64,000 nucleotides of DNA. It comes from Microbacterium sp. LWO14-1.2 (GTDB taxonomy: Bacteria > Actinomycetota > Actinomycetes > Actinomycetales > Microbacteriaceae). The position numbers and the translations under genes are program-made. The stretch covers positions 1-64,000 of the forward strand of contig NZ_CP151633.1 of the NCBI RefSeq assembly GCF_038397715.1, read 5' to 3'. The notes below the pieces were generated by a model. The model did not search any database and was not told the DNA's origin. It saw only the letters and a list, made by a program, of their open reading frames with translations. How positions within the stretch are numbered: position 1 is the first letter of the stretch; each line of letters starts with the position of its first letter. Shown piece after piece: positions 34 to 27,013 of this stretch.

Positions 34-396
34 ATGAGGGTGCTCTTCGGGATCATTATTGCTCTGCTTCTCACGCTCGGTATCGCGAGCACTGTCCACG
101 CAGAGACTGCGACGTCGGCCACAGCGTCACCGGAAAGCTTCTCGTTGTCGAGTGAGCACGACGAACGAGATCAGTCCGCGGTGTCCTCTGCTGGATCATC
201 TGATGTCGCCGCCGCTGTGTGCATAGTCGGTGCGCTTCTCGGCGTGCTGGTGTTCGCCCGACTCGCCCGCGCGCGACTCCGCACCCCGATGCGAGCCCCT
301 TCACGAGACTCCGCGCACCGCGCATCGATTCCGCGCATTCAGGGACCACATCTGCTGCGCCCTGACCTCGCGCAGCTGCAGATCTCCCGAACCTGA
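34..396 (+). CDS. DUF6153-like small membrane protein, copy 1
   Basis: A 120-residue protein with an N-terminal signal or membrane segment (about residues 3-22), a short polar stretch, a second hydrophobic helix (about 58-76) and a basic tail. It ends in RPDLAQLQISRT, matching the C-terminal PxLxxLx(I/V)SR signature of three other small proteins in this window. From memory this is the pattern of actinobacterial DUF6153 proteins found in copper loci; no function is established. The next gene, a DUF3515 lipoprotein, starts 82 nt downstream. The start at 34 is the first ATG, with no clear ribosome binding site, and upstream sequence is cut by the window edge. The long overlapping frame in which the lipoprotein lies is not used here. 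Confidence 0.65.
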   Translation: MRVLFGIIIALLLTLGIASTVHAETATSATASPESFSLSSEHDERDQSAVSSAGSSDVAAAVCIVGALLGVLVFARLARARLRTPMRAPSRDSAHRASIPRIQGPHLLRPDLAQLQISRT

Positions 397-418
397 CTCT
401 CCGGCTCAATCCCGCCTT

Positions 419-457
419 CATCCGTGCCATCGCGCGGATGCGGATCGACGCACGTCG
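419..457 (+). promoter_or_regulatory. Hairpins between DUF6153-like copy 1 and the DUF3515 gene
   Basis: The 82-nt gap holds a 6-bp inverted repeat, CATCCG at 419-424 with CGGATG at 435-440, followed by CGACG/CGTCG at 446-457. Then come GTCGACAG (457-464) and the ribosome binding site CTTGGAGAG just before the TTG start. The same order of hairpins, GTCGACAG and CTTTGGAG occurs after copy 2. A role in translational control is inference. Confidence 0.35.
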
Positions 458-478
458 TCGACAGCTTGGAGAGATGAC

Positions 479-1051
479 TTGGAGAACACGCCCCTCACCC
501 CGACCCCCGCCGAGGTCTCAGTCAATCGGCGCGCCGTTTCGCGGAACCTAATCCTCGGAGCCGTCGCACTCATCGGCCTGCTCGCGACATTGTCGGGATG
601 CGCGTCCACTGTCGCATTGAAACCTGCGACAAATGCGAACGACCCCGAATGCGCCGACGTGACGGTTCGGCTCCCCGCAGCCGTCGGAGAGTTCACCGGT
701 CGCACGACCGATGCCCAAGCGACCGCCGCATGGGGAGACCCGACCATCGTCGTCTTTACCTGCGGGCTCGAGCCACCAGCACCGACGACGCTGCAGTGCG
801 TGACCATCAACTCCGTCGATTGGATCGTCGACGAACAAGATTCCCCTTACCTGCGCTTGACGACCTACGGCCGAACGCCCGCAGCCCAGGCCTACGTCGA
901 TACGACGAAGCTCTCCGCGGATGCCGCGTTGCAAGCCCTCGCACCCGCGGTCCAGATACTGCCGAAGACGTCCGCCTGCTCCGCGCCGGACACAGCGTCA
1001 TCGGACGACGAGGACGCGCCGACCACGGGCGGCTCCGGAGACCTCCCGTGA
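479..1051 (+). CDS. DUF3515 family lipoprotein
   Basis: Predicted lipoprotein of 190 residues with lipobox LSGC (lipidated Cys about residue 41) after a hydrophobic segment. The body carries the DUF3515 pattern: ECADVTVRLP, AWGDP, TCG, TTLQC and VDWIVDE. The function of DUF3515 is unknown; it sits on the outer face of the membrane. The TTG start at 479 is chosen because CTTGGAGAG precedes it by about 5 nt and no in-frame ATG or GTG is near. Its TGA overlaps the GTG of the CopD-CtaG gene by 4 nt, so the two are probably translationally coupled. A chromosomal DUF3515 copy is usual in these bacteria, so this is probably an accessory copy. Confidence 0.8.
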   Translation: MENTPLTPTPAEVSVNRRAVSRNLILGAVALIGLLATLSGCASTVALKPATNANDPECADVTVRLPAAVGEFTGRTTDAQATAAWGDPTIVVFTCGLEPPAPTTLQCVTINSVDWIVDEQDSPYLRLTTYGRTPAAQAYVDTTKLSADAALQALAPAVQILPKTSACSAPDTASSDDEDAPTTGGSGDLP

Positions 1052-2949
1052 GCGCCAGCGGGCTCCGACTGGCCGGACCCGCCCTCCTGCTCACCTCAGC
1101 GCTGGTCGCGCTCCTCCTGGGATTGGTGATAGGTGGCGGGGCTGATCCACGGGTCACCAGCGACCCCGGCGCGGTCGTCCGGTGGGGACTGCCGGTCGCG
1201 AAGCTCATCGTCAACCTCGGGGCGGCGGTCATGGTGGGATCGGCCGTCCTTGCTGCGTACGCGCTCACACAGGGCGAGAAGGAGTTCGATACCGCCCTGG
1301 ATGTCGCCTCCATCGGTGCCGCAGTGCTCACCATCGGCGCAGGAGTCACTGGTTATCTCACCTTCCTGTCATCGTTCAATCCTGAGGTGTCACTCGGCCC
1401 GGGATTCGGTCAGCAGTTCGGCAGATTCCTCCTCGAGACGGAGCTGGGCCGCGTCTGGCTCATCACAACAGTGATGGCCGCGATACTCACGGTGATCTCG
1501 TATGCGTTCCGGGGATGGGCGGCCGCGCTGTTGCTGACGTTCCTTTCGCTGGCGTCGCTGGTCCCGATGGCCACGCAAGGTCATTCCGGAAGCCTCGCCA
1601 ATCATGATGCTGCGGTCATCTCGCTCGTGCTGCACATCACCAGCGCGGCGGTATGGCTCGGCGGTCTTCTCGCGCTGGTCTTCCTCAGGCCGTCTGCGCG
1701 CGAGCACCGTCTGCGGGCAATCGTCGAGCGATACTCGACCATCGCACTCGTCGCCTTCGTGGTCGTCTCCGTGTCCGGAGTCGCCCGCGCGATGACGTCT
1801 GTCAGCGGCTGGCGAGAACTTCTCAGCGCGTACGGAGCTGTGCTCTTGGTGAAGGTGGTGGCGCTCACGCTCCTCGGCGTCGTGGGTGTCGCGCACCGTC
1901 AGTGGTACATCCGCCGTGGGGTCGGAGAGCGGGCACCGTTCTGGACGTTCGTCACCGTCGAGTTCGCGGTCATGGGCATCGCGAGTGGTGCCGCAGCGGC
2001 GCTCGCCCGCACGCCCGCGCCGGCAGACACCTCAGCTCCGGCGCTGACGACACCGGCTGAGATCCTCACCGAAGCGCCGCTTCCGCCCGAGCTCACACTC
2101 GTCCGTTGGCTGAGTGGGAACGACGTGAATCTCCTGTGGGTGATGGTCGCCGGTTTCGGAGTCTTCTTCTATCTGATGGGTGTCCGTCGCCTGCGGCGTC
2201 GCGGCGAGGCGTGGAGCGGCCTGCGCACGTTCGCGTGGATCAGCGGGATGGTGCTGCTGGCTTGGGTGAACAGTGGGGCGGTCGCTGTCTACTCCGACTA
2301 CCTCCACAGCGTCGACGCGGCGGGACGGATGCTCATGCTCCTCGTGGTTCCCTCCCTCCTCGTGTTTGGCGCGCCATATCGCCTGGCATTGGAGGGAATC
2401 ACCAACCGCACCGATGGGAGCCGTGGAATCCGCGAGTGGCTGCGAGCAGGGGAGCGCTCGCGGATCGTCCTCTTCCTGCGCCACCCCATAGTCGCGATGT
2501 GCACGTTCGCTTTTATCGTGTGGGGCGTATCCGCCACTGGCCTCTTGCGCGATTCCCTCGCCGATCCCTTGGTGCATGAATTGCGCGTCGTCGCGCTGCT
2601 CGTAGCGGGAAGCTTGGTGACCGCTGCGATCCTCCGTCCTGCCGGCACATATCCCCGGCGGATGCGTGTGGTTGTCGTGTTCGGATCGGCTGCCGCGCTG
2701 GCGAGTGTAGGCAGTTGGGTGCTGCTTCAGAGCGGCCTGATTGCTGCGAGCTGGTTCGGGGCGATGGGTCGTCAATGGGGCCTGGAGCCGATGGCGGACC
2801 AACAAGCAGCCGGCATGGTGATCCTGCTCTCGGCGCCAATGCTGCTCCTCTTCGGCCTCAGCGTCGACTACATACTCAGCGGGCACTCCACTCGCTCACC
2901 ACAGGAGGTCGACCGACCCCTCCACTCCACTCGAAAGGCCATCTCATGA
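1048..2949 (+). CDS. copD: CopD - CtaG fusion, copper import and cytochrome oxidase assembly protein
   Basis: Polytopic membrane protein of 633 residues with two parts. The N-terminal half (about 1-310) has the CopD pattern, including a His-bearing VPMATQGHSG segment and LVLHITSAAVWLGGL. The C-terminal half (about 350-610) is a caa3-type CtaG domain, with YLHSVDAAGRM and LLVVPSLLVFGAP. CopD is thought to move copper across the membrane with CopC, and CtaG supplies copper to cytochrome oxidase. The GTG at 1048 overlaps the preceding stop (GTGA), and copC starts at an ATGA overlap. The same frame stays open about 150 codons upstream, but that stretch is antisense-like and overlaps the DUF3515 gene. 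Confidence 0.9.
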   Translation: MSASGLRLAGPALLLTSALVALLLGLVIGGGADPRVTSDPGAVVRWGLPVAKLIVNLGAAVMVGSAVLAAYALTQGEKEFDTALDVASIGAAVLTIGAGVTGYLTFLSSFNPEVSLGPGFGQQFGRFLLETELGRVWLITTVMAAILTVISYAFRGWAAALLLTFLSLASLVPMATQGHSGSLANHDAAVISLVLHITSAAVWLGGLLALVFLRPSAREHRLRAIVERYSTIALVAFVVVSVSGVARAMTSVSGWRELLSAYGAVLLVKVVALTLLGVVGVAHRQWYIRRGVGERAPFWTFVTVEFAVMGIASGAAAALARTPAPADTSAPALTTPAEILTEAPLPPELTLVRWLSGNDVNLLWVMVAGFGVFFYLMGVRRLRRRGEAWSGLRTFAWISGMVLLAWVNSGAVAVYSDYLHSVDAAGRMLMLLVVPSLLVFGAPYRLALEGITNRTDGSRGIREWLRAGERSRIVLFLRHPIVAMCTFAFIVWGVSATGLLRDSLADPLVHELRVVALLVAGSLVTAAILRPAGTYPRRMRVVVVFGSAAALASVGSWVLLQSGLIAASWFGAMGRQWGLEPMADQQAAGMVILLSAPMLLLFGLSVDYILSGHSTRSPQEVDRPLHSTRKAIS

Positions 2950-3605
2950 CATCCGTCTCCACCCGAATCCGCCGCGTGAGCGGTGCCGTATGCGCCGCCG
3001 CTGTCGCAATCGTGCTGCTGACCGCAACCCCAGCCTCCGCACATGACAATCTCACCGACGCTGTGCCATCGGCGGGCGAGACAGTCACCAACCTCGACAC
3101 AGTCGCACTGACTTTCAGCGGGGAGCTCATCGACTTCAGCCAGACGAGCTTCGCCCAGGTGCAGGGCCCCGACGGGCTCTTCTACGAGTCGTCGTGCTCC
3201 ACCATCGAACTCAACGTGCTCACCACCCCCGTCGCCCTCAGAGCGTCGGGCACCTACACGGTGCTCTGGAACGCTGTGTCCAGCGACGGGCACCCCATCT
3301 CCGAGTCATACCAGTTCGACTACGCAGCGGATCCGACGGCGACCGTCGCACTCGGTTGGGACGCACCGGCGTGCGGGAACGAAGGCACCCGTACTCAACC
3401 AGGAGCAGCGCTGACCAGTGCCCCGATGCCGACCGACGCCACCAACTCGGCGCCGCCCACACAAGATACCGACCGAGAGCCGCGCGCTGACGGGGCAGAT
3501 GAGAGCGTCGTGGCCCTGGCCGTTGTCGGAGGCGTCGTCGTGCTGGGAGTTCTGGCGATGGCGACCGTGCTCGTGGTGCACCGTCGACGCAAGCGCGCGG
3601 AGTGA
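2946..3605 (+). CDS. copC: Copper resistance protein CopC
   Basis: Exported copper-binding protein of 219 residues. A signal peptide ends at ASA, leaving His as the first mature residue (HDNLTDAVPSAGETV), which is the usual N-terminal copper ligand of CopC. The second ligand motif is SSDGHPISESYQF. After the CopC fold (about 35-135) come a Pro/Thr-rich linker and a C-terminal membrane helix (about 190-212) with a basic end, which would tether it to the outer face of the membrane. It overlaps copD by 4 nt (ATGA). Two Cys residues (SSC and PAC) could form a disulfide, which fits the nearby DsbA-like protein. Confidence 0.93.
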   Translation: MTSVSTRIRRVSGAVCAAAVAIVLLTATPASAHDNLTDAVPSAGETVTNLDTVALTFSGELIDFSQTSFAQVQGPDGLFYESSCSTIELNVLTTPVALRASGTYTVLWNAVSSDGHPISESYQFDYAADPTATVALGWDAPACGNEGTRTQPGAALTSAPMPTDATNSAPPTQDTDREPRADGADESVVALAVVGGVVVLGVLAMATVLVVHRRRKRAE

Positions 3606-3713
3606 CCGAATGATTACGGCTCATTCAAAGGAAGAAGTAGGAGCGACGATTACAATCGAATCGTGTTCCACTCGATCCGGGTCGCCTGCCACGGGCGGCC
3701 GGATCGCAGCCAG

Positions 3714-4124
3714 ATGATAATGCGGCTCATTAGCATCATCGGGCTCACACTCCTCCTGATCTTCGCCGTCGGCGCAGCCGAGCACGGAAGTGCCGATGTC
3801 ACCACGGGGTCGACCACGGCCAGCACGTCGCTCGACGCCAATGAATCAGGCACCGACGCAGCCGCTGCGGCACCCGCAGGCGTCGTGATGCAGCTCGCCA
3901 CGGGCGCTGCACAAGTAGACCGGGTCACGGGCGTTGTGCTGTGCGTCCTCGGTCTTCTCTGCGGACTTGTCGCAGCGGTCATGCTCTATCGGCTGCTCTG
4001 GCGCAGGACAGCCGTGGTCGTGGAGACCCACGCGGCTCAGCCGCGAACGAGCGCCGCTCCGAATAGCATCCCCCTGAGGCGGACGTCGCTGACTCTGGCG
4101 ACGCTCGGGATCTCCCGGACCTGA
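3714..4124 (+). CDS. DUF6153-like small membrane protein, copy 2
   Basis: A 136-residue protein with an N-terminal signal or anchor segment, an Ala/Thr-rich exposed stretch, a second hydrophobic helix (about 72-98) and a C-terminus ending LTLATLGISRT. At the DNA level the last codons and stop (GATCTCCCG, A or G, ACCTGAC) are nearly identical to copy 1. The ATG at 3714 is used; an ATG two codons later is equally possible. No Shine-Dalgarno is obvious. A TACAAT hexamer at 3651-3656 could be a -10 box for an internal promoter. The DsbA-like gene follows after 87 nt. Confidence 0.65.
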   Translation: MIMRLISIIGLTLLLIFAVGAAEHGSADVTTGSTTASTSLDANESGTDAAAAAPAGVVMQLATGAAQVDRVTGVVLCVLGLLCGLVAAVMLYRLLWRRTAVVVETHAAQPRTSAAPNSIPLRRTSLTLATLGISRT

Positions 4125-4129
4125 CCCGT

Positions 4130-4177
4130 CGAGGCGTCGCGCCTCGCGCGTGCGCATCCCATCGAGCATCCGCTCGA
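4130..4177 (+). promoter_or_regulatory. Tandem hairpins between DUF6153-like copy 2 and the DsbA-like gene
   Basis: Two perfect stems lie in the 87-nt gap. CGAGGCG/CGCCTCG (4130-4146) has a 3-nt loop and TCGAGC/GCTCGA (4162-4177) has a 4-nt loop. GTCGACAG (4189-4196) and the ribosome binding site CTTTGGAG follow. The layout matches the gap after copy 1 and may form a translational switch; this is inference. Confidence 0.4.
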
Positions 4178-4211
4178 CCTTCGACCGTGTCGACAGTCTT
4201 TGGAGTACCTG

Positions 4212-4877
4212 ATGAAACCCGCCGTCAAAGCCGGCCTCGCTGCCCTTGCCGTAACCATCGTCCTGATTATCGTCGCGGTAATCGTCGTCATCGTTAACCA
4301 GCAGAACACTGCGCCGCCAGAATCCGAGAACGGAAGCTCTACGGCGCAGGTGCTCCGCGAGAACTCACACGTTCTCGACGACGGGGGAGACGGGGCAGTC
4401 ACCGTCGTTGAATTCCTCGACTTCGAATGCGAAGCGTGCGGAGCCTTCTACCCCGTGGTCGAAGACCTTCGCGAGCGCTACGACGGCGAGATCACCTATG
4501 TCATCCGCTATTTCCCGCTACCGGGTCACCTGAACTCCAGGAATGCCGCGTTCGCTGCCGAAGCGGCTGCGCAGCAGGGACGCCTTGAGGAGATGTACCG
4601 CAAGCTCTTCGAGACGCAGGCTCAATGGGGTGAAGCTCAGGAATCGCGGGCGAGCCTGTTCCGAGGCTTCGCTGAGGAGATCGGCCTGGACATGGCCGCT
4701 TACGATACCGCGATCTCTGACCCCGCGACGGTCGCACGAGTCGATCTCGACTACAACGACGGTCAGGCACTGGGAGTGAGCGGAACTCCGACGTTCTTCG
4801 TGAACGGCGATGCCATCACACTCGAGCGCTACGACGACCTCGAGAACGCGGTCCTCTCAGCGGGCAAGGGAACATGA
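4212..4877 (+). CDS. DsbA-like membrane-anchored thiol oxidoreductase
   Basis: A 221-residue protein with one N-terminal membrane anchor (about 6-30) and an extracytoplasmic thioredoxin-like DsbA domain. The active site is CEAC (Cys73 and Cys76, in DFECEACGAFYP), and the cis-Pro loop is SGTPTFFVNG. It should oxidise or shuffle disulfides of exported proteins. Start ATG 4212 is preferred over the upstream TTG because GGAG lies 6 nt before it. It overlaps the next gene by 4 nt (ATGA). In this operon it may act on CopC, the lipoproteins or apocytochromes, together with the ResA-like protein and CcdA downstream. Confidence 0.88.
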   Translation: MKPAVKAGLAALAVTIVLIIVAVIVVIVNQQNTAPPESENGSSTAQVLRENSHVLDDGGDGAVTVVEFLDFECEACGAFYPVVEDLRERYDGEITYVIRYFPLPGHLNSRNAAFAAEAAAQQGRLEEMYRKLFETQAQWGEAQESRASLFRGFAEEIGLDMAAYDTAISDPATVARVDLDYNDGQALGVSGTPTFFVNGDAITLERYDDLENAVLSAGKGT

Positions 4878-5887
4878 CACTCCTAGGCCTCTCTCATCGT
4901 CGAGTCATCATCGTCGGCTCCGGCCACGCCGGTCTCTCCGTCGCCGCCGAACTCTCGCGTTCGGGCCTGAAGCCGCAACGGGACTTCGCCGTCATCGACA
5001 GCAATCCTGACGGGCGTCGTTCGTGGGCGTTCCGCTGGTCGTCGATGACACTCCTGACGGAGGCAGGGCGGAGCACGGTCGCCGGGCGGCATCTCACAGG
5101 CGACCCCTATCGACGCCCGTCGCCGCGAGAGATCGAACAGCATCTTCTCGACGTCGAGGCCGCCCTAGGCCTCACGACGCTGTGGGGCATCAGAGCGACA
5201 GGCGTGGACCGTCTGGGGGACGGATCCACTCTGCTTCTGTCAACGAACGAAGGGCCGGTACAGACGCGCAACATCGTCTGCGCGACCGGGTCTGCGGCTC
5301 GACCTCGGATCCCGAGCTGGGCGGTAGACGCCGCGGTGCCGGGGATCATGGTTCATAGCGCCGACTATCGCGGACCGAGCCAGATTCCCAGCGGTGACGT
5401 GCTGGTCGTCGGAGCCGGCCACAGCGGCCAAGAGATCGCGCGCGAGCTCAGTCGTACGCACCGCGTCACGCTGTCGTCCCAGCCCTCGGCGGTCTCCGCA
5501 GCTCGACCGGCACGACGCGGCGTCGGGCGGCGTCGGGCACTAGCGCGAGGTGGGGCAGCGCTCTCACTGGATCCGGAATGGGAACAACTCGGCATCGAAG
5601 TGCTGCCTGCGGCCATTGCCGCAGATGGAGCGCACATCGTCTTCGACGATGGTCGTCGTATCGCTCCGCAGTCCATCATCTACGCGACCGGATACCTGCC
5701 CGCGGACGGCTGGCTTCCCCGTCCGGTACTCGATGCCACGTCCAGTCGCCGGAAGCGCGGGACTACGAGCGTCCCAGGTCTGTTCGTCGTCGGCATGCCG
5801 AGCCACGGTAGCCAGGATTCAGACACCTTCGACGGGGCACGCCGCGACGCGATCTCGATTGCACGCCACATCATGAAGCGCCCCTGA
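4874..5887 (+). CDS. FAD/NAD(P)-binding flavoprotein, monooxygenase-like
   Basis: Cytoplasmic flavoprotein of 337 residues with an N-terminal FAD-binding GxGxxG (GSGHAG, about 16-21) and a second dinucleotide site, VVGAGHSGQEIAREL (about 177-191). A late IYATGYLP motif is typical of flavin monooxygenase or thioredoxin-reductase-like enzymes. An Arg-rich stretch (RPARRGVGRRRALARGG) lies in the second half. The substrate cannot be read from the sequence. It is coupled to the DsbA-like gene by an ATGA overlap, so a redox role near the thiol proteins is possible but inferred. It lacks a CxxC thioredoxin-reductase active site. Confidence 0.75.
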   Translation: MTLLGLSHRRVIIVGSGHAGLSVAAELSRSGLKPQRDFAVIDSNPDGRRSWAFRWSSMTLLTEAGRSTVAGRHLTGDPYRRPSPREIEQHLLDVEAALGLTTLWGIRATGVDRLGDGSTLLLSTNEGPVQTRNIVCATGSAARPRIPSWAVDAAVPGIMVHSADYRGPSQIPSGDVLVVGAGHSGQEIARELSRTHRVTLSSQPSAVSAARPARRGVGRRRALARGGAALSLDPEWEQLGIEVLPAAIAADGAHIVFDDGRRIAPQSIIYATGYLPADGWLPRPVLDATSSRRKRGTTSVPGLFVVGMPSHGSQDSDTFDGARRDAISIARHIMKRP

Positions 5888-5929
5888 ATACGTTCGTCCG
5901 AAATACACCGACCGAAACGAGGATCACAC

Positions 5930-6316
5930 ATGAGACATCCGATGGCCACGACGAAACATGCGTGGGGTGCCGTCGCGTGTGCGTTGCTGATCCTCGCGAC
6001 GGTCCTGCTGGTTTCGCCTTCGGTTTCAGCGTCCGCAGTTGGGGACGTCGCACCAGTTACCGCGTCCCCCACTCCGGAACAGAGTTCAACGCCGTCGCCT
6101 TCGCCGTCGCCCGAAGAGACAGAGTCGGACAAGGACCGTCATCAAAGGCAGAACGGAGAGCGGCCGGTGGAACGAGACGATCTCGGGTTCCTCGGCATCC
6201 TGTTCGTCATCGGCATGGGGTTCGTTCTCGTAGCGGGCGCTGTCGGTGTCGCGTTCGCCGGGTGGAAGCGCCGCCGGCGCGACCGAGCAGCGGCCGACAC
6301 GGAAGGAGGCGCGTGA
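5930..6316 (+). CDS. Small secreted or membrane protein of unknown function
   Basis: A 128-residue protein with an N-terminal signal segment (about 14-33), a Pro/Ser/Thr- and acid-rich low-complexity stretch (about 45-80), a second hydrophobic helix (about 86-108) and a basic tail (KRRRRDR). GAGGAT upstream of the ATG is a plausible ribosome binding site. I do not recognise the family. It lacks the ISR C-terminus of the DUF6153-like proteins, though the two-helix layout is similar. It directly precedes lspA, with GGAAGGAGG at its 3' end serving as the lspA ribosome binding site. Confidence 0.55.
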   Translation: MRHPMATTKHAWGAVACALLILATVLLVSPSVSASAVGDVAPVTASPTPEQSSTPSPSPSPEETESDKDRHQRQNGERPVERDDLGFLGILFVIGMGFVLVAGAVGVAFAGWKRRRRDRAAADTEGGA

Positions 6317-6318
6317 TC

Positions 6319-6861
6319 ATGAGTGCGCGCGTGCCGAAGCTCGCCATTGCGTTCGCCGTCGCCGGTGCGACCGTCATCATCGACCAAGTGTCGAAGGCGG
6401 TCGCCTTGGCGCAACTGAGTACCACGGAGCGCATTCCGCTACTGGGAGACCTCTTCGGGCTGCAACTGGCGTTCAACCCGGGTGCCATCCTGTCGTTCGG
6501 TTCCAGCGCGACTCCGCTGCTGACCGCAGTCGGAATCGCAGCGACGGTCGTGCTCATCAGGAGCGCAATTCGATCCCGTACCACGTGGTGGGCGGTCGGT
6601 ATCGGGTTCATTCTCGGGGGAGCCATCGGCAACGTCCTGGACCGTCTCTTCGCACCCCCTGCGTTCGGCCGCGGGTACGTCACCGACTTCCTCGCCTACT
6701 CGGACCTCTTCATCGGCAATCTGGCGGACGTGGCGCTGGGGGTCGGTGCCGTCGTGCTGGTCGTCGGGCTTCTTCGGCGCCGCCGTGGTCCAGACGACGA
6801 CGTCGTCACGCCTCCCGCTTCGATGCCACAGGACATGAGCGAAGGATGGGGACGCTCATGA
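6319..6861 (+). CDS. lspA: Prolipoprotein signal peptidase (signal peptidase II)
   Basis: Integral membrane aspartyl protease of 180 residues that cleaves signal peptides of diacylglyceryl-modified prolipoproteins. The two catalytic Asp motifs are visible: GNVLDRLF (about 97-104) and GNLADVAL (about 129-136). The usual N-terminal DQVSK is at about 22-26. Four hydrophobic segments fit the family. ATG 6319 is preferred over GTG 6313 because GGAAGGAGG (6301-6309) is 9 nt upstream. Every such bacterium needs a chromosomal lspA, so this is probably an extra copy, packaged with lipoprotein genes and a second lnt. Confidence 0.93.
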   Translation: MSARVPKLAIAFAVAGATVIIDQVSKAVALAQLSTTERIPLLGDLFGLQLAFNPGAILSFGSSATPLLTAVGIAATVVLIRSAIRSRTTWWAVGIGFILGGAIGNVLDRLFAPPAFGRGYVTDFLAYSDLFIGNLADVALGVGAVVLVVGLLRRRRGPDDDVVTPPASMPQDMSEGWGRS

Positions 6862-7193
6862 CACAGAAGAAGCGGACCCCTTCCACTTATCAGCGGAACG
6901 CCCTTGCTCCGAGTCTGCTCGCAGCCGCGGTGCTGTTCCTCGCCCCCGTGCTGCTGGCGAGTGACTGGGCCTCGGTCATCCTCTACGTCACGTCGATCCT
7001 CGCGGTCATCGTCGGATGGTTCGCCGTGCAAGCGCGCCACTGGTGGTGGATCCCGGTGTTCATCGCCATCGCCGTCCTGTGGAATCCCGTCATGCCCTTC
7101 CCGTTCGCCGGACCGGTCTGGACCGGAATCCAGCCCGCGGCAGCAGTCGTCTTCCTGGTAGCGGGAAGCCTTATCAAGTTCCCCCGACCCTGA
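6858..7193 (+). CDS. Small four-helix membrane protein (DUF6804-like)
   Basis: A 111-residue protein that is almost entirely hydrophobic, with four predicted helices and conserved-looking VGWFAVQARHWWWIPVFIAI and LWNPVMPFPF segments. The Trp-rich pattern resembles DUF6804 proteins as I recall them; the function is unknown. It overlaps lspA by 4 nt (ATGA), so it is co-translated with it. Its place between lspA and ctaG suggests an envelope role, but nothing more specific can be supported. Confidence 0.6.
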   Translation: MTQKKRTPSTYQRNALAPSLLAAAVLFLAPVLLASDWASVILYVTSILAVIVGWFAVQARHWWWIPVFIAIAVLWNPVMPFPFAGPVWTGIQPAAAVVFLVAGSLIKFPRP

Positions 7194-7242
7194 TGTCGGC
7201 ACTCATCGCTCAGCTCATCGACAGGCCGGAGGGGGCCCGTCG

Positions 7243-8181
7243 ATGACTCCGTGGATCCCCGACGTCGCGCCCACCTTCCCTGACTACTTCGCCGTGGTTC
7301 CGGGGGCGCTTCCGGTGCTGCCGGTGGTCGCTGGGCTGCTTGCACTTCTCTACATGGTCGGGGCCGTTCGCATGTGGACGCACGGTCGACGCTGGTCCAT
7401 CTGGCGTACGTTCAGCTTCCTCAGCGGCTGCGCGCTCCTGGCTGGGACGACCGGTCTCGCCGTGGAGAATTACGGCTACGCGTTGATGTCGGTGTTCATG
7501 TTCCAGCAGCTCACTCTGATGATGGCGATTCCGCCGCTACTCATCCTGGGATCTCCGGGCACGTTGCTGCTCCGCGCCACCCCGCACGTAGGGCTGGGGC
7601 GTACGGCACTCGCCGTCGCCCACGCGGGGCTGCGCAGCAGACTCGCGCGCTGGGCTCTGAGCCCATGGGCGGCGCTCCCTCTCTATCTGGCCGCGTTCTA
7701 CGGCCTGTACCTCGCGGGGTTCGCAGACTCCCTCCTGAGCTCGACCGCGGGACACATCGCCCTCGAGGTGGCGTTCCTCGGCGCGGGCATCATCTTCACA
7801 ATCCCCATCCTGAGCTCCGACCCGCTACCCGTTCGCCTCAGTCACGGCGGCCGCGCCCTCGATGTGTTCGCCGAAGCCGCGCTGCACGCCTTCTTCGGAG
7901 TGTTCCTCATGATGGCCACCACCATGCTCATCACCCACTTCGTCGCGCCCACGCAGGCCATGGGACTCGACCCCATCGAAGACCAGCGGCTCGCCGGCGG
8001 ACTCGCCTGGTCGTACGGCGAGGCCCCCACGCTCCTGATGCTGATCTACGTCATGCACCGATGGTTCCGAGAGGACACCGCACGATCCCAGGCACAGGAC
8101 CGGTACGTAGACATCCACGGATCATCCGAGCTGGATGAGTACAACGCTTACCTCCAGAAACTCCGCGAGCGGGACGCCTGA
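7243..8181 (+). CDS. ctaG: caa3-type cytochrome c oxidase assembly protein CtaG
   Basis: Polytopic membrane protein of 312 residues of the caa3 CtaG family. Motifs include VENYGYALMSVFMFQQLTLM, IPPLLILGSPGTL and a late DQRLAGGLAWSYGEAPTL. CtaG helps place copper in cytochrome oxidase. GGAGGG lies just upstream of the ATG. This is the second CtaG domain in the operon, since the CopD fusion carries one. The C-terminal 40 residues are hydrophilic and cytoplasmic. lnt follows after 3 nt. Confidence 0.9.
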   Translation: MTPWIPDVAPTFPDYFAVVPGALPVLPVVAGLLALLYMVGAVRMWTHGRRWSIWRTFSFLSGCALLAGTTGLAVENYGYALMSVFMFQQLTLMMAIPPLLILGSPGTLLLRATPHVGLGRTALAVAHAGLRSRLARWALSPWAALPLYLAAFYGLYLAGFADSLLSSTAGHIALEVAFLGAGIIFTIPILSSDPLPVRLSHGGRALDVFAEAALHAFFGVFLMMATTMLITHFVAPTQAMGLDPIEDQRLAGGLAWSYGEAPTLLMLIYVMHRWFREDTARSQAQDRYVDIHGSSELDEYNAYLQKLRERDA

Positions 8182-8184
8182 GCA

Positions 8185-9807
8185 ATGTCGACGAGACTCC
8201 TCACTGCGCCGACGTCTGAGGCCCGAACGACGAACAGTGATCTCACACGACCACTCGTCGGTGTATGGGTCGCCGTTTCGCTGTCGGCGGTCGGCGGACT
8301 CGCCATGGACCTCGCGACTCCCGAGGTCAGTTGGTGGCCCCTCGCGTTCGTCAGCGTCATCCTCACCTTGGTTGCGACCGTCGGACGTAGCGTCGGCGGA
8401 GCGCTGCTCGTCGGTCTCGCGTTCGGTGTCACCTTCTACGCGCTTCACCTCGATTGGGTTGGTCAGTTCCTCGGGCCGTTGCCACGCATCGCGTTGTCGG
8501 GGCTGCAGGCTCTCTTGTTCGGGCTCGGTGCGGTTCCCATAGCGCTGGCATACCGATGGACGAGCCGCTTCCGCGGCCGTCGCGTCTGGCAGATCGTCGC
8601 CGTACCCGCGCTGGTCGGCGGGTTGTGGGTTGCCCGCGAGATCGTGCTCGGATCGTGGCCGTACGGCGGGTTCCCCTGGGTGCGACTCGGGATGACCCAG
8701 GTCGAGAGCCCGTTCCCGGAAGCTACATCGTGGATCGGTGTGACCGGGCTCTCGCTCACCATCGCGGTCATCGCTGCGAGCATCGTGCAGTGGCTTCGTA
8801 TCGGGTTGCGCGCAGTGTCCGTTCTGACGCCCGCTGTCGTCCTGATTTTCGGACTCAGTGTGACACCGCAATATGCGACGACAGGCGCGGGCACATTCGC
8901 GGTTGGGTGGGTCCAAGGCAACGGTCCCTCAGGCTACTTCGACGGTAGAGCCTCGGGTGACCTGCTCAAAGCACAGGTCGCGGCATCGGAACCGATTCTC
9001 GACCGGAACATGGACGTGCTCGTCTGGCCCGAAGGATCGGCGGAGTTCGACCCGTTCCGCAACCGACAGGCCGCCTCTGAACTGAATCGGATCGTGTCCC
9101 GGACGGGGGCGCCGCTTCTGGCGAACGCGGCGACGGCACGAGGCGATGAGACGTTCAACACCTCCTTCCTGTGGACGGCAAACCCCGGCAGCTCTCAAGT
9201 CCACGACAAGGTCAATCCCGTCCCATTCGGCGAGTACGTCCCCGACCGATGGTTGTACGAGCGCCTTGCCCCCGACCTCGTCGGGCTGATCCAGCGCGAG
9301 TACACTGCCGGCACGAACCCACCCGTCGTGACCGTCGGCGAGACCGACATCGGTCTCGCGATCTGCTTCGACGTGATCTTCGACGACGTGATCCGTGCCG
9401 CTGCTGAGCAAGATGTGAAGCTCTACATCTTCCAAACCAACAACGCGGACTTCCGCGGCTCCGACGAGAACCTTCAGCAACTGGCCTTTGCCCGGATGCG
9501 TGCCATCCAGACCGGTAAGAGCGTGGTGAACGTTTCCACTGTGGGCACCAGTCAAGTCATAGCCCCGGACGGCGCGATCCTCGACACAGCAGGCGTCGAC
9601 ACGGTCGCTGCCGCAATCACGGATGTGCCGCTCCGCTCAGGCATCGCACCAGGCATCCTCGCGGAGAAGTGGCTCGCGTTGAGCGCGCCATTGCTCGCGT
9701 TCGGAAGCCTCGCAACACTTGCCCTCATCGTTCGACGTGCATCGTCGTACGGCCCAGACTCGACCCCCGAACCCGAATCCGGAGGCCCGAACCGTGACCA
9801 CACATGA
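8185..9807 (+). CDS. lnt: Apolipoprotein N-acyltransferase, island copy
   Basis: A 540-residue enzyme that transfers a third acyl chain to the N-terminal Cys of lipoproteins. N-terminal membrane helices (about 25-225) are followed by a nitrilase-like domain. The Glu-Lys-Cys catalytic triad is visible in WPEGS, DKVNPVPFGEYVP and AICFDV, and a C-terminal helix lies near 490-515. It closely resembles the chromosomal Lnt at 47500-49032; for example, QTNNADFRG and LQQLAFARMRAI are shared. It lies between ctaG and an M23 peptidase whose start overlaps its 3' end by 14 nt. A second Lnt with a second LspA suggests the island brings its own lipoprotein-processing set. Confidence 0.92.
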   Translation: MSTRLLTAPTSEARTTNSDLTRPLVGVWVAVSLSAVGGLAMDLATPEVSWWPLAFVSVILTLVATVGRSVGGALLVGLAFGVTFYALHLDWVGQFLGPLPRIALSGLQALLFGLGAVPIALAYRWTSRFRGRRVWQIVAVPALVGGLWVAREIVLGSWPYGGFPWVRLGMTQVESPFPEATSWIGVTGLSLTIAVIAASIVQWLRIGLRAVSVLTPAVVLIFGLSVTPQYATTGAGTFAVGWVQGNGPSGYFDGRASGDLLKAQVAASEPILDRNMDVLVWPEGSAEFDPFRNRQAASELNRIVSRTGAPLLANAATARGDETFNTSFLWTANPGSSQVHDKVNPVPFGEYVPDRWLYERLAPDLVGLIQREYTAGTNPPVVTVGETDIGLAICFDVIFDDVIRAAAEQDVKLYIFQTNNADFRGSDENLQQLAFARMRAIQTGKSVVNVSTVGTSQVIAPDGAILDTAGVDTVAAAITDVPLRSGIAPGILAEKWLALSAPLLAFGSLATLALIVRRASSYGPDSTPEPESGGPNRDHT

Positions 9808-10825
9808 CCCTCTCGAGCCGAACATTCGACCGGAGCCGCTTCTCACGCGGTCGGAGCTTCGACGCCGAGAGACCGCGCCGACAGCCCCGACTCCGCCAGT
9901 CACCCGCTCCGAACTTCGGCGCAGGCGCGAGGCCCTGTCCCATCCGCCGATTCCACCAATCAGCGCATCCGACCATCGACCTCGTGACGAGGGCATTCCG
10001 AGCCGAGAGCACGACGTGCGGACTCCGGCGAAGACGGTGAACACGACTCCATCCACCACCCCCACGGAGCAGGACGCTCGACGCGTTGCAAAGCCTGCTC
10101 CTGCGAGGTCCATCGGGCGGCGAATCGGGAGAACGCTCATCGTGGTGGGCACATTGACCGTCGCTTCCTCGTTTATGGTCGGCATGACGATCCCGGCCGA
10201 GACCGTCGCGGCGACCAGGACGGATACCACGGCGCGGTTCGCGCCTTCCGAGAGCGACCGATCCGCCGCCGATAGTGACATTCAGGCGTTTGTCGTGCCG
10301 GAGGATGCTGCGGCGGAGGACCTTGGTCGGTCGAGCGGCTTCAGCGTGACGTCCGTCCCGCAGCTCGCGGCGGCAGCAGGAATCCGTTACTTCAGTGGAT
10401 CCCTGCTGCTCGACCCCGATGCTGAGGTGCAATGGCCGTTCCCGGTCAGCGTGCCCACGTCGTCGAGTTTCGGGCCCAGGTGGGGACGAATGCATGAAGG
10501 CGCCGACTTCACACCAGGTGAGGGAGCTCAGATCCGCGCCGTGGCCGGCGGGACGGTCCGCATCGCGACCGAGAACGGAGGGGCGTTCGGGGTCACGGTC
10601 TACATTGAGAGCAAGATCGACGGGCAGACGGTATTCAGCCGCTACGCGCACATGTTGCGCGGCTCCCTCGGAGTTCGCGAGGGGGAGACAGTCTCCGTCG
10701 GTGCGGTCGTCGGACGAGTCGGTAACACCGGACGCAGTTTTGGTGCGCACCTGCACCTTGAACTGTCGACAGAAGACGGAACTGTCGATCCTGTCGCTTG
10801 GTTGCGGGAGAAAACCGGTGGATGA
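9794..10825 (+). CDS. M23 family metallopeptidase, membrane-anchored
   Basis: A 343-residue protein with a cytoplasmic N-terminal region (about 1-108) containing two copies of TRSELRRR separated by a Pro/Thr linker. A membrane helix (about 112-132) is followed by an extracytoplasmic LytM domain (about 220-340). The zinc motifs are MHEGADF and the HLHLE core. M23 enzymes cut peptide cross-links in peptidoglycan. The GTG start at 9794 has GGAGG 9 nt upstream and overlaps the end of lnt by 14 nt. The next gene overlaps its 3' end by 8 nt. The duplicated basic motif is unusual and may bind a partner. Confidence 0.85.
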   Translation: MTTHDPLEPNIRPEPLLTRSELRRRETAPTAPTPPVTRSELRRRREALSHPPIPPISASDHRPRDEGIPSREHDVRTPAKTVNTTPSTTPTEQDARRVAKPAPARSIGRRIGRTLIVVGTLTVASSFMVGMTIPAETVAATRTDTTARFAPSESDRSAADSDIQAFVVPEDAAAEDLGRSSGFSVTSVPQLAAAAGIRYFSGSLLLDPDAEVQWPFPVSVPTSSSFGPRWGRMHEGADFTPGEGAQIRAVAGGTVRIATENGGAFGVTVYIESKIDGQTVFSRYAHMLRGSLGVREGETVSVGAVVGRVGNTGRSFGAHLHLELSTEDGTVDPVAWLREKTGG

Positions 10826-11297
10826 GCTGCGGCCCGTCCCGCTCGATGACCTAGACCTGAGAGGACGGGCGAAAAACACCCGTCGAGGGCGAACACCGGC
10901 GACGTCGCCGTTTGCCGTCGGTGTGATTGTCGTGGTCATGGCGTCACTGTTGCTCGTGTTGGGTGTCGCCTGCGCTCCGTATCGGGCGACACCTGATGCA
11001 TCGACGGCCGTCGGCGTCGACGATCCCTCGGCGCTCGGTGCTCGAAACGCTGCGCCGGACGCGCCCTCAGTTGCGGTGGGGGAGCCCTCTGCATCGAGCA
11101 TCGGCATGGGCCCCGTTGCGTGCGCTCTCGGACTGTTCTGCGGAGTACTTCTCCTGCTCCTCAGCACTCTGCGTCGGCCGATGCCTCTAATGAACCCGGG
11201 ACGTATCAGGTCTCACCTCATACGTCGACTCCTTCCGAGAATCGTGATGAGGGCCACCGCCCCCTCTCTGACGAAACTCCGCGTGTCGCGGACCTGA
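10818..11297 (+). CDS. DUF6153-like small membrane protein, copy 3
   Basis: A 159-residue protein with a basic N-terminus, a hydrophobic segment (about 36-54) ending in a Cys, an acidic and Ala-rich stretch, a second helix (about 99-119) and the C-terminus APSLTKLRVSRT. That ending matches the PxLxxLx(I/V)SR signature of the other copies. The GTG start at 10818 has GGGAG about 7 nt upstream and overlaps the M23 stop by 8 nt. The ResA-like lipoprotein gene follows after 164 nt, the longest gap in the operon. Confidence 0.6.
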   Translation: MDELRPVPLDDLDLRGRAKNTRRGRTPATSPFAVGVIVVVMASLLLVLGVACAPYRATPDASTAVGVDDPSALGARNAAPDAPSVAVGEPSASSIGMGPVACALGLFCGVLLLLLSTLRRPMPLMNPGRIRSHLIRRLLPRIVMRATAPSLTKLRVSRT

Positions 11298-11330
11298 ACT
11301 TCCTCGATTCACGCCGTCCTGCTCTCGTCA

Positions 11331-11355
11331 CTCGGGAGCGAGACGTGACGTCGCC
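11331..11355 (+). promoter_or_regulatory. Possible hairpin upstream of the ResA-like gene
   Basis: The 164-nt gap after DUF6153-like copy 3 contains CGTCAC and GTGACG arms around an approximately 13-nt loop, and further downstream a longer imperfect G/C-rich inverted repeat. It parallels the hairpins after copies 1, 2 and 4, but is weaker. Coordinates are approximate. Confidence 0.25.
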
Positions 11356-11461
11356 CCCGGGACCCGCTCCTCGTCGAGCACTGACGTCCGGGGAGCGAGG
11401 CGTGAGCCCGATTACCTGCGGCTCTGCCCTGCCAACGAGATTCAGATCCGAAGAGGAACCC

Positions 11462-12127
11462 ATGCTCAGCGAGCCCGTCCCCCGACCACCCGCCACCCGC
11501 GTCCCCACCGCGCAGGACCACGGCCGGCGACGACGTATTCGTCACGCCGTTCTCGCCTCCATACCCGTCCTTCTCCTGCTCGCAGGGTGCGCGTCCAACG
11601 ACTCCCTCTCCCAGCAATTTAGGGATGGCAACGAGAAAGGCTTCATCGCAGGAGACTTCCAAGTTGTCGAGATCCCGCAAGACGAGCGCGGAGAGCCGGT
11701 GACATTCGAAGGGGTCACGGAGACCGAAGAGCAAGTCGCGAGTGACGACTACCGCGGCGACGTCCTCGTCGTGAACTTCTGGTACGCCGCATGCGGCCCC
11801 TGCATCGTCGAGGCGCCATACCTCGAACAGGTGTGGCAGGACTATCGCGAGGACGGCGTGGCATTCCTTGGCGTGAACACCTACGACCAACCCGCCACCG
11901 CGCTCTCGTTCGCCAAAGACAACGGCGTCACGTATCCGAGCGTGATAGACGTCAACGACGGCAAGGTCAAGCTGGCCTTCGCTCAGGTGACGCCGATCCA
12001 AGCCACGCCGACCACCCTGGTCATCGACCGCTCCGGCAGAGTCGCCGCCCGCGTCATCGGCCAACTCGACAGCGCCTCAATCCTCGCGACGCTCGTCGAG
12101 GACGTTCTCGAGGAGAGCGTCCCATGA
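11462..12127 (+). CDS. ResA/TlpA-like thioredoxin lipoprotein
   Basis: A 221-residue lipoprotein with lipobox LLAGC (Cys about 43) and an extracytoplasmic thioredoxin fold with active site CGPC (about 111-114, in WYAACGPCIVE). The cis-Pro loop is IQATPTTLVID. Proteins of this type reduce the CxxCH cysteines of apocytochrome c before heme attachment, fed with electrons by CcdA. ATG 11462 is used because GAGGAA precedes it. The frame stays open far upstream without a signal sequence, so longer starts are unlikely. It overlaps ccdA by 4 nt. Confidence 0.9.
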   Translation: MLSEPVPRPPATRVPTAQDHGRRRRIRHAVLASIPVLLLLAGCASNDSLSQQFRDGNEKGFIAGDFQVVEIPQDERGEPVTFEGVTETEEQVASDDYRGDVLVVNFWYAACGPCIVEAPYLEQVWQDYREDGVAFLGVNTYDQPATALSFAKDNGVTYPSVIDVNDGKVKLAFAQVTPIQATPTTLVIDRSGRVAARVIGQLDSASILATLVEDVLEESVP

Positions 12128-20260: not shown

Positions 20261-20261
20261 C

Positions 20262-20657: not shown

Positions 20658-20670
20658 CAGATGATCTCTC

Positions 20671-21345: not shown

Positions 21346-21371
21346 TGACTCAATATTGACTGAACTATCCT
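21345..21371. promoter_or_regulatory. Divergent promoter and operator upstream of the ArsR-ArsC fusion and the aquaporin
   Basis: A perfect 10-nt palindrome TCAATATTGA (21350-21359) lies inside a direct repeat of ATTGACT. On the plus strand TTGACT (21345-21350) and TATCCT (21366-21371) form a -35/-10 pair with a 15-nt spacer. It is probably the operator of the fusion regulator. Confidence 0.5.
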
Positions 21372-21394
21372 CCATGCGTCAAGATGGGCCAGCC

Positions 21395-22129: not shown

Positions 22130-22142
22130 AAGGCCCACCACA

Positions 22143-23513: not shown

Positions 23514-23604
23514 GCAGACAGCTCCCGATGGAGGTAGCTGTTGGCGGCGAGGTGTTCTGCACGCCAAGCTGCATCTAACCGGGGCGCCGAATAACCCGAT
23601 GCTG

Positions 23605-23637
23605 CCCCTAATATACCCCCAGGGGGTATAGTAGGGG
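23605..23637. promoter_or_regulatory. CsoR operator and -10 box
   Basis: A 33-nt near-perfect palindrome is centred on 23621, with one mismatched pair in 16-bp arms. Its core is TATACCCCC-A-GGGGGTATA (23612-23630), the classic GC-tract CsoR operator. TATAGT (23627-23632) is a good -10 box 6 nt before the csoR ATG, implying a leaderless transcript. Copper-free CsoR would therefore cover the promoter. Confidence 0.88.
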
Positions 23638-23638
23638 C

Positions 23639-23920
23639 ATGAACGGATATGCGTACGACAAGTCCGCGTTGCAACAGCGCCTGCGGCGGGTGGAGGGTCA
23701 GGTGCGCGGAATCGCGCGGATGGTCGACGAGGACCAGTACTGCATCGACATCCTCACGCAGGTGTCCGCCGCGACGAAGGCCCTGGAAACCGTAGCCCTG
23801 TCGTTGCTCGGAGATCACCTCAGGCACTGCGTCGCAGAAGCCAGCGCCGAAGGCGGCCAGGTGGCCGTCGAGAAGATCCGTGAAGCCAACGAAGCGATTG
23901 CCCGTCTCGTCCGTTCCTGA
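23639..23920 (+). CDS. csoR: Copper-sensing repressor CsoR
   Basis: A 93-residue all-helical repressor of the CsoR/RcnR family. The Cu(I) ligands are in register: Cys35 (DQYCIDI), His60 and Cys64 (GDHLRHC). The typical RLRRVEGQVRGIARMV lies at residues 14-29. When Cu(I) binds, it leaves the GC-rich palindrome that overlaps its own promoter. It should control the following chaperone and ATPase genes, which lie 28 and 52 nt apart on the same strand. Confidence 0.94.
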   Translation: MNGYAYDKSALQQRLRRVEGQVRGIARMVDEDQYCIDILTQVSAATKALETVALSLLGDHLRHCVAEASAEGGQVAVEKIREANEAIARLVRS

Positions 23921-23948
23921 CCCCCACCCATCGACCCTGGAGCTCATC

Positions 23949-24269
23949 ATGACTGACCGAATCGAACTCAGCCTGAAGGACGCCACCGCCGGATGCGCCT
24001 GCTGTGCCGCACCCGGAAACCAGAACACCGACCTGCCTGCGGCATCCGCGGTTACGCAGGAGATCCTGGTGGACGGCATGACCTGCTCGCACTGCGTCTC
24101 CAGTGTCACCGAAGAGCTGACTGCCATCGAGGGCGTCGACAGCATCACGGTCGCCCTAAACGCGGGTGGAACGTCGCGCGTGACCATCAACAGCCGCACC
24201 GACATCGACGACGACGCCATCACGGCCGCGGTCGAAGAAGCGGGCTACGCCCTTTCGACCCCAAACTGA
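23949..24269 (+). CDS. CopZ-like copper chaperone with N-terminal Cys extension
   Basis: A 106-residue protein. Residues 35-104 form a heavy-metal-associated domain with GMTCSHC (Cys46, Cys49). The first 34 residues are an extension with CACC (Cys16, Cys18, Cys19), not part of normal CopZ, which is about 70 residues. The protein would carry Cu(I) to the ATPase encoded next. The extra Cys cluster may be a second metal site. Confidence 0.88.
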   Translation: MTDRIELSLKDATAGCACCAAPGNQNTDLPAASAVTQEILVDGMTCSHCVSSVTEELTAIEGVDSITVALNAGGTSRVTINSRTDIDDDAITAAVEEAGYALSTPN

Positions 24270-24321
24270 GCCCGCACACCCTCACATATTCGTCACGCGT
24301 CAGAAGTCAAGGAGGCTCGCC

Positions 24322-26442: not shown

Positions 26443-26489
26443 TCGCACCCGAGGCCGCGACGTACGCTGGATGGAAGGGAGGTGGACGG

Positions 26490-26930
26490 ATGCTGACGAC
26501 ACTCGCGCGACGCGTGCACCAGCGGCGTTCGCTCACCCGCAGCGTGGTCACCGTGGTCGCAGTCGCCCTTGGTGTCATCTTCGGATTGCTGGCGATGCAC
26601 TCGATGAACACGCATGCCATGCCCTCCGGGCACAGCAATGACGTCGCCGTCGCCAGCGTCGCCGAGACGCATCACGAGCACACCGCCCCCGCAGCATCCT
26701 TACCGACGGACGATTACACAGGATGCGTCGGCTGCTCCGAAAACCACGGGACGACCTGGATGGCGTGCGTTCTCGCGCTCCTGGTCGCAGTTGTGCTGCT
26801 GGCACGCCCCGGCGCATGGCGGCACTCACTGTGGCAGCCACGCACCCCGCCCCGCTCGTCGTGGGCGCGACCGACGGTGCACCCACTCCGCCCACCCTCT
26901 CTCACCGTTCTCTGCATCAGCCGTAAGTGA
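26490..26930 (+). CDS. DUF6153-like small membrane protein, copy 4
   Basis: A 146-residue protein with an N-terminal signal or anchor helix (about 20-38) and an exposed stretch rich in His and Met (MHSMNTHAMPSGH and ETHHEH). Two Cys follow (CVGCSENH, not a heme CxxCH site), then a second helix (about 90-108) and the C-terminus PPSLTVLCISRK. The His/Met content suggests copper binding. GGGAGG lies just before the ATG. It shares the PxLxxLx(I/V)SR ending with copies 1-3 and, like them, precedes a lipoprotein gene, here DUF305, after 83 nt. Confidence 0.7.
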   Translation: MLTTLARRVHQRRSLTRSVVTVVAVALGVIFGLLAMHSMNTHAMPSGHSNDVAVASVAETHHEHTAPAASLPTDDYTGCVGCSENHGTTWMACVLALLVAVVLLARPGAWRHSLWQPRTPPRSSWARPTVHPLRPPSLTVLCISRK

Positions 26931-26932
26931 GC

Positions 26933-26965
26933 AGTGCTGCGCCCGCGCTTCGCGGGCACAGCACT
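26933..26965 (+). promoter_or_regulatory. Strong hairpin between DUF6153-like copy 4 and the DUF305 gene
   Basis: AGTGCTG-C-GCCCGCG and CGCGGGC-A-CAGCACT form a 15-bp stem with one mismatch and a 3-nt loop, starting 2 nt after the copy 4 stop. The lack of a T-run makes a simple terminator less likely. It may control translation or mRNA processing of the DUF305 gene. Confidence 0.6.
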
Positions 26966-27013
26966 CATCCAGCGCCTCCGCTGGGCACCACAACCGACTC
27001 TTGGAGAACCACC

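Follow-up and report, generated by a model that had tools for sequence, protein, structure and literature searches.

Candidate translated leaders of Microbacterium and Streptomyces-like genomes whose C-terminal codons are predicted to pair with the downstream Shine-Dalgarno sequence

Four small open reading frames (ORFs) with related C-termini each stand directly before the gene of an exported protein in the first 64 kb of the 3.78 Mb single-contig genome of Microbacterium sp. LWO14-1.2, a stretch that we call the window. Do these small genes control their neighbours? An initial annotation had taken them for copies 1 to 4 of a DUF6153-like gene and had suggested that they are metal-sensing leaders. 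All four ORFs were recovered where it had placed them (Table 1), the gaps of 82, 87, 164 and 83 nucleotides (nt) to the next start were confirmed, and Pfam identified the neighbours as DUF3515, DsbA-like, ResA-like and DUF305 proteins. Judged by sequence comparison, the small genes belong to a real and widespread leader family. An RNA coupling between the leader tail and the Shine-Dalgarno (SD) sequence of the next gene is well supported by comparison, and translation of the small gene probably controls the next gene. Arrest of the nascent chain is likely, and copper is a plausible signal; that copper is sensed is what we infer.

The label DUF6153-like fits copy 4, which scored 35.6 bits with the Pfam profile PF19650 (gathering score 27.7), but on their own scores not the other three: copy 1 reached 26.8 bits, 0.9 below the gathering score, and copies 2 and 3 gave no match to this profile. 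The copies are nevertheless linked: a copy-3 query matched copy 1 in its own genome at 5.3e-6, and hhalign joins the copy-2 family to DUF6153 members along the 59 C-terminal columns that run from the Cys into the tail (probability 95.5, E 1.3e-8). All four end in LxxLx(I/V)SR(T/K). The longer ending PxLxxLx(I/V)SR(T/K), assigned to all of them at the outset, is present in three, copy 2 having Leu instead of Pro at position -11 from the C-terminus. Such a tail alone proves little, as the DNA pattern NTSNSNCGNACNTGA occurs at 22 places in the genome and its reversed control at 13; the support for the tail is its conservation in relatives. As a detector outside the genus the LxISRT DNA pattern is useless, since among 199 genomes of the family it matched nine, compared with seven for the reversed control.

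DUF6153 was found in at least 106 of 198 sampled Microbacterium genomes (E <=0.001; at least 98 over the cut-off) and in 70 of 121 Streptomyces-like genomes (E <=1e-4; 68 of these passing the cut-off). A phylum-wide set of 396 genomes gave matches in 8. Relatives of copy 2 occur in at least 69 and those of copy 3 in at least 58 of the 198 genus genomes (E <=0.01). The genome counts for DUF6153, copy 2, copy 3 and DUF305 are lower bounds, and the loci analysed are part of the matches listed. From 111 tailed ORFs, 105 distinct ones were obtained, of which 97 had a usable downstream gene; nine ORFs (eight distinct) had none by our criteria, five of them being divergent copies with the tail LLRPSLIVLSISRT. 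A survey of homologues for a conserved downstream partner yielded one. The next gene carries a DUF305 motif at 91 of the 97 loci, the rest being three DUF3515 genes (copy 1 and two orthologues), two genes of a 278-aa lipoprotein and one of another lipoprotein. Gaps between leader and DUF305 gene measure 40-114 nt, with a median of 91. In named genomes (78 loci, one of them without a leader by the search pattern) a DUF305-motif ORF starts within 300 nt of the leader in 73 of 77 cases; this set includes Gulosibacter, Leucobacter and Pseudoclavibacter as well as metagenome assemblies labelled Micropruina, Cryobacterium and Lacisediminihabitans. A further 92 loci comprise 43 Streptomyces-like ones, 37 with a DsbA-like next gene and 12 others; three Streptomyces-like loci without a leader and five loci without a downstream gene were dropped from their analysis. 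Example partners tested with Pfam were DUF305 (L340), multicopper oxidase (L334, L344), CopC (L322) and ResA-like (L287) proteins.

The coupling became apparent from duplex energies. At 68 loci, duplexes of the tail with its own SD region had a mean of -22.28 kcal/mol, compared with -17.95 kcal/mol (standard deviation 0.41) for permuted partners, and not one of 20,000 permutations reached so low a value. For four control stretches taken from the same ORFs, z against permuted partners was -0.1 to -1.2. With the loci thinned to below 45% identity, z was -7.05 for 29 Microbacterium loci and -4.56 for 12 Streptomyces-like loci, and in neither case were any of 5,000 permutations as good; in the DsbA group (nine thinned loci) 2 of 5,000 were, once the 15 nt 3' of the stop codon were included. 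Duplex energies with permutations were used rather than pair counts, because the MAFFT alignment of the leader RNAs misplaced a CGACT box. Examples of tail and SD partners are CTTTCGATAAGTCG with CGACTTATCGAAGG (L116, L121) and GTCCTGTCGATC with GATCGACAGGAC (L016); one clade pairs GTACGTGA with TCACGTAC, and L059, whose tail ends in SRR, pairs GTAGGTGA with TCACCTAC. In the Streptomyces-like L160, read by eye, TGCAACTCCT pairs with AGGAGTTGCA.

Codon choice points in the same direction. Under a null of synonymous recoding the 68 loci had a mean z of -2.21 (p 2.5e-12; 37 of 68 below 0.05), and the controls were not significant; the Streptomyces-like loci gave z -0.72 (p 1.4e-5) and the DsbA group z -0.48 (p 0.023). 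Ser -3 is encoded by AGT in 74 of 105 leaders, although the downstream genes use AGT for only 25 of their 1,186 serines. AGTCG lies opposite the CGACT box near the SD at 39 of 72 AGT loci, but at 5 of 20 AGC loci. In the DsbA group the Ser -3 codon is TCC in 27 of 37 leaders, which would allow pairing with GGAG of the kind predicted for copy 2. A test of the Arg wobble base over all loci gave 14 of 39 where 6.9 were expected (p 0.0005). Matching changes together with codon choice preserve the complementarity of tail and SD across the family, and the link to the downstream ribosome-binding site that the initial annotation had proposed was thus found, through permutations and codon choice at 68 loci, as one that co-varies.

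The gaps fold better than shuffled sequences (mean z -2.39 for 97 gaps, -0.49 for coding controls). The hairpins that had been noted in them are present; the main structure closing the SD, however, is a long-range helix from the tail codons and stop region to the SD, which is predicted to enclose them. Local gap hairpins were rejected as the main switch, the long-range helix explaining SD closure better. A search of the copy 4 gap for an intrinsic terminator found none on the plus strand and one chance-like site on the minus strand (26461-26442). Folding predicts SD sequestration in copies 1, 2 and 4. With a model ribosome, represented by a rigid mask of 30 nt and read out as the unpaired probability of the SD, the mean started at 0.20, reached 0.56 with the front edge 10-14 nt short of the stop codon, and came to 0.50 with that edge at the stop codon and 0.38 with it at +12. 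It rose from 0.16 to 0.40 in Streptomyces-like loci and from 0.25 to 0.40 in the DsbA group. For a ribosome holding the stop codon in its A site the mean was 0.40, with a rise of more than 0.2 at 31 of 68 loci and a fall at one. In this model, the SD would be opened by slow translation of the last codons or, in Microbacterium, by slowing at RxP.

The encoded proteins share more than the paired bases. In the tail, Arg -2 (105/105), Leu -6 (104/105) and Pro -11 (102/105) are near-invariant, and a comparison of 34 diverse members leaves just three invariant residues, a Cys, a Leu and an Arg. The linker diverges in sequence, but its length is held: the distance from the Cys to the end, where found, is 51-56 residues in the DUF305 group, 58 in copy 1, 51-54 and 58-60 in the DsbA group, and exactly 54 in 23 of 43 Streptomyces-like leaders. 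Each of the four window leaders encodes two hydrophobic segments. A late hydrophobic segment is present in 63 of 66 leaders of the DUF305 group, as opposed to 1 of 28 RAPP-type Streptomyces-like ones, and ends in the DUF305 group a median of 34 residues (27-38) from the C-terminus, roughly one exit tunnel. Copy 4 and many DUF305-type members contain CxxC, which copies 1-3 lack. RxP stands at -14 in 15 of 24 Streptomyces-like loci, and all 16 DsbA-group loci lack RxP; Microbacterium tails have RPPS or RAPS, or no RxP, and end in ISRT.

The preferred interpretation is that the four window genes are translated cis-acting leaders. As the comparison shows for the family, the mRNA of about the last eight codons, the stop codon and the bases just behind it is complementary to the next SD region, and it is predicted to keep the SD closed. 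A ribosome dwelling on the tail would open this helix and allow translation of the next gene; upon quick termination the helix would close again. The dwell time would be set by the nascent chain. During membrane insertion a metal, most likely copper, may be sensed by the conserved Cys 51-60 residues from the end together with Cys and His residues close by, while the tail R(P/A)PSLxxLxISRT would hold the ribosome. In most Microbacterium members this Cys belongs to a second hydrophobic segment, whose distance from the C-terminus is about the length of the exit tunnel. Copper would then raise the synthesis of DUF305, thioredoxin-like and multicopper-oxidase proteins, as with CutF for CutO. That the leaders act in the manner of CutF or CruR, with the anti-SD strand inside the conserved tail and ribosome dwell opening the SD, we consider fairly probable. 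The chances seem evenly balanced for a more far-reaching proposal, by which the tail is dual-coded, the same 8-10 codons being both arrest peptide and anti-SD RNA, and has been copied into an actinobacterial translational copper/thiol regulon, with four leaders within 27 kb here controlling the DUF3515, DsbA-like, ResA-like and DUF305 genes.

The RNA evidence by itself requires the passage of ribosomes, not their arrest, and would also fit plain translational coupling through the tail helix, without any sensing and with the leader product as a membrane partner of the next protein. We hold this to be rather unlikely, since near-invariance extends to tail residues outside the paired bases (Pro -11, Leu -9), the Cys-to-end distance is fixed whether or not a group has the second hydrophobic segment, and RAPP relatives have been published as arresting, according to the part of PMC12992588 covered. 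It is distinctly unlikely that the same leader mechanism responds to another signal, be it the thiol redox state, another metal or the status of membrane insertion. The DsbA-like and ResA-like thiol proteins among the partners would suit such a signal, SecM/ApdA-type leaders sense export, and the covered part of PMC9973294 notes CutF-like proteins for other metals. Copper is favoured by the partners DUF305, CopC and multicopper oxidase and by P-type ATPase motifs, which lie within 3 kb of the leader at 57 of 78 named DUF305-type loci; five 6.4-kb pieces from the rest of the window contain no such motif. Upstream of copy 4 there are CsoR-like, CopZ-like and CopA-like genes, named by eye without profile confirmation, and DUF305 is named in a study of CopM, a copper-binding Synechocystis protein (PMC4335983, covered in part).

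Control could also act on transcription as in CruR (PMC9426467, covered in part), the leading ribosome on the tail deciding over Rho termination in the gap and the SD pairing being incidental. Gaps of 80-164 nt, that of copy 4 without a plus-strand intrinsic terminator, would leave room for this. Yet the locus-specific complementarity hits the SD region itself, and the strong folding of the gaps is unfavourable to Rho loading, which makes Rho control very improbable. Conserved gene pairing alone would be compatible with ordinary two-gene operons of membrane proteins whose tail is conserved for protein function only; in view of the locus-specific pairing, the codon choice and the related tails on leaders with unrelated partners, the likelihood of this is close to negligible.

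Several results weigh against control of the SD by ribosomes dwelling on the tail. At only 24 of 68 loci does a tail's own SD region come out among the best 10% of partners. In the DsbA group the permutation with the tail only is not significant (545/5,000). The number of loci that are significant on their own for codon choice does not exceed that of the controls, with 4 vs 5 of 29 in the Streptomyces-like and 3 vs 3 of 22 in the DsbA group; nor is the Arg-wobble test significant in the thinned set (5/20, p 0.13). Singly, copies 1, 3 and 4 are not exceptional and only copy 2 stands out (synonymous p 0.20, 0.007, 0.64 and 0.41 for copies 1 to 4), so that the case rests on the family; in the synonymous-codon and A-site tests the start of copy 3 was set one base early, the right base being used in the permutation test. 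The duplex formed by the anti-SD of copy 1 is matched or beaten by 89% of the gene's other windows. When the A site holds the stop codon, the unpaired probability of the SD remains under 0.5 at 51 of 68 loci, and in the mask model a RAPP stall in Streptomyces would hardly open the SD. RAPP or RGPP near the C-terminus was looked for in the four window tails and found in none. Finally, DUF305 occurs in at least 165 of 198 genomes and DUF6153 in at least 106, which points to many genomes with DUF305 that lack a DUF6153 match, these being counts per genome and not pairs of genes.

Table 1. Leaders, predicted pairing elements and downstream genes in the window
Feature	Position	Strand	Details and basis
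Leader copy 1 (P0001)	34..396	+	tail RPDLAQLQISRT; DUF6153 26.8 bits, under cut-off
Predicted anti-SD of copy 1, CTCTCCGGCT, directly 3' of stop	397..406	+	computed fold
SD GGAGAG of DUF3515 gene	468..473	+	sequence and fold
DUF3515 lipoprotein-like gene, assumed TTG start 479	479..1051	+	Pfam DUF3515 9.5e-15
Leader copy 2 (P0002)	3714..4124	+	tail TSLTLATLGISRT; homologue search, hhalign
CTCC within Ile-Ser codons of copy 2, predicted partner of the SD of the DsbA-like gene	4112..4115	+	fold; synonymous-codon p 0.007
SD GGAG of DsbA-like gene	4202..4205	+	sequence and fold
DsbA-like exported thioredoxin-fold gene, ATG 4212	4212..4877	+	Pfam Thioredoxin_4 1.2e-22, DSBA 8.2e-19
Leader copy 3 (P0003)	10818..11297	+	tail APSLTKLRVSRT; homologue search
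TTCCTC 3' of copy 3 stop, complementary to SD GAGGAA (11453-11458)	11300..11305	+	weak, read from sequence, not significant
ResA-like lipoprotein gene, ATG 11462	11462..12127	+	Pfam Redoxin 5.6e-20
Leader copy 4 (P0004), DUF6153	26490..26930	+	tail PPSLTVLCISRK; Pfam above cut-off
GTTCTC in Val-Leu codons of copy 4, predicted partner of GAGAAC (27004-27009) at SD	26907..26912	+	fold; singly p 0.41
Two tandem hairpins in copy 4 gap	26933..26984 (26933-26965, 26969-26984)	+	locus L001, gap z -3.26
SD GGAG of DUF305 gene	27003..27006	+	sequence and fold
DUF305 lipoprotein gene, ATG 27014	27014..27610	+	Pfam DUF305 1.6e-43

The start codons of copies 1 (close to the window edge), 2 and 3 are guesses: copy 2 has an alternative in-frame GTG at 3663, and the GTG start of copy 3 at 10818 overlaps an ORF ending at 10825. 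The words GATCTCCCG-R-ACCTGAC and GTCGACAG, reported as common to copies 1 and 2, are present in both. Rfam 15 at gathering score found no known RNA elements in positions 1-28600. Three other genomes (G368, G414, G341) each carry orthologues of both copy 2 and copy 3, at 86-95% identity and some 7 kb from one another; close orthologues of copy 1 are present in G368 and G414 at least. Because these orthologues co-occur, the block 34-12127, which also holds CopC/CopD-like, LspA-like, Lnt-like and ResA-like genes (named by eye), seems to travel or be inherited together. Among plasmid records copies 2 and 3 had no match, and copy 4 matched two.

Behind the DUF305 gene of the window lies a lipoprotein gene without a Pfam match (27672-28577); a similar-looking 278-aa lipoprotein with its own leader (tail SPDLTALSISRT) occurs in two genomes (L105 at 6023, L141 at 1984). 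In another genus of the family (G214, L154/L045) a leader with the tail APNRIALGISRT precedes another lipoprotein, with a predicted gap of 81 nt. A second leader-like gene, with the tail LLRPSLIVLSISRT, stands divergent from the DUF305 leader at L011 (-), L084 (-), L085 (+), L089 (-) and L092 (+), and no partner of it was found within the distance limits used. At the Streptomyces-like loci L334, L335, L344, L345 and L348, leaders with tails ending in LSVLR(I/V) lie 60-159 nt before long exported proteins. The two of these partners tested with Pfam are multicopper oxidases, an arrangement as in CutF-CutO.

The RAPP/RGPP arrest peptides (PMC10951233, PMC10987492, both covered in part) are a precedent for arrest on the tail. 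In the part of PMC12992588 covered, RAPP/RGPP proteins are described upstream of metal, DsbA and thioredoxin genes, and seven of those of S. lividans arrest. SLIV_16130 from this paper has the same Cys/His spacing as our loci L252 and L263; on this ground we take it to be a DUF6153-type leader, so that arrest has probably been demonstrated for one such leader already. The terms Shine-Dalgarno, stem-loop and secondary structure are all absent from the main text of PMC12992588. No mention of DUF6153 was found in the literature searched, and the literature covered, which included no preprints and few subscription journals, yielded no description of an anti-SD encoded in the tails of these proteins. 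Arrest by RAPP-type Streptomyces leaders is already published, and what appears to be new is the locus-specific tail-SD pairing suggested by comparison. The proposed dwell on a pairing tail offers a mechanism for DUF6153, a domain of unassigned function, and for its unnamed relatives in Microbacterium and Streptomyces-like genomes. Because the tail amino acids and the tail RNA pairing can be changed separately, the action of nascent sensors on the next gene becomes testable. If the proposal is true, several leaders per genome would form a translational copper regulon beside the transcriptional one.

Some family members show weak full-length similarity to the CopL family and to mycobacterial LpqS, but every match is far below the curated cut-offs. 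Among 34 members at E <=1, seven matched the NCBIfam LpqS model (best 0.0012), two the CopL model and five the DUF2946 profile (best 0.0057). Copy 4 had no DUF2946 match and scored 16.3 bits with LpqS (cut-off 35) and 18.4 with CopL (cut-off 40). The weak LpqS and DUF2946 matches may hint at a remote kinship with the DUF6153-type leaders.

In SecM and MifM a ribosome stalled on the leader exposes the next SD, and protein export or insertion is sensed. To our knowledge, the anti-SD of these systems has not been described as encoded in the arrest codons. The exposure of the next SD by a leader-stalled ribosome is what the leaders described here would share with SecM and MifM, which are both named in PMC9973294. 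CutF, the DUF2946 leader of cutO in Rhodobacter capsulatus, is in the covered part of PMC9973294 a small exported leader with a Cys metal motif and a Pro-containing C-terminus, traits that the present leaders may share; a structure shields the next SD and the next gene handles copper, just as Streptomyces-like relatives here precede multicopper oxidases. It differs in Pfam family and tail sequence, and its stem-loop is described between the genes, whereas here one strand would lie in the leader's own tail codons. As the list of CutF-like proteins in that paper includes Actinomycetota, an overlap with DUF6153 is possible. CruR of Bordetella pertussis (DUF2946; PMC9426467) senses copper as a nascent chain, as the present leaders may do, and has RAPP near the C-terminus and Cys at distances of 53 and 56 residues from it, but there copper relieves the arrest and permits Rho termination, and SD sequestration is not described in the text covered. 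The published RAPP/RGPP arrest peptides (PMC12992588, in the part covered) differ from the Microbacterium tails ending in ISRT, but resemble the Streptomyces-like DUF6153 proteins both in the tail, which there contains RAPPSL or RGPPDL, and in their copper, DsbA and thioredoxin partners.

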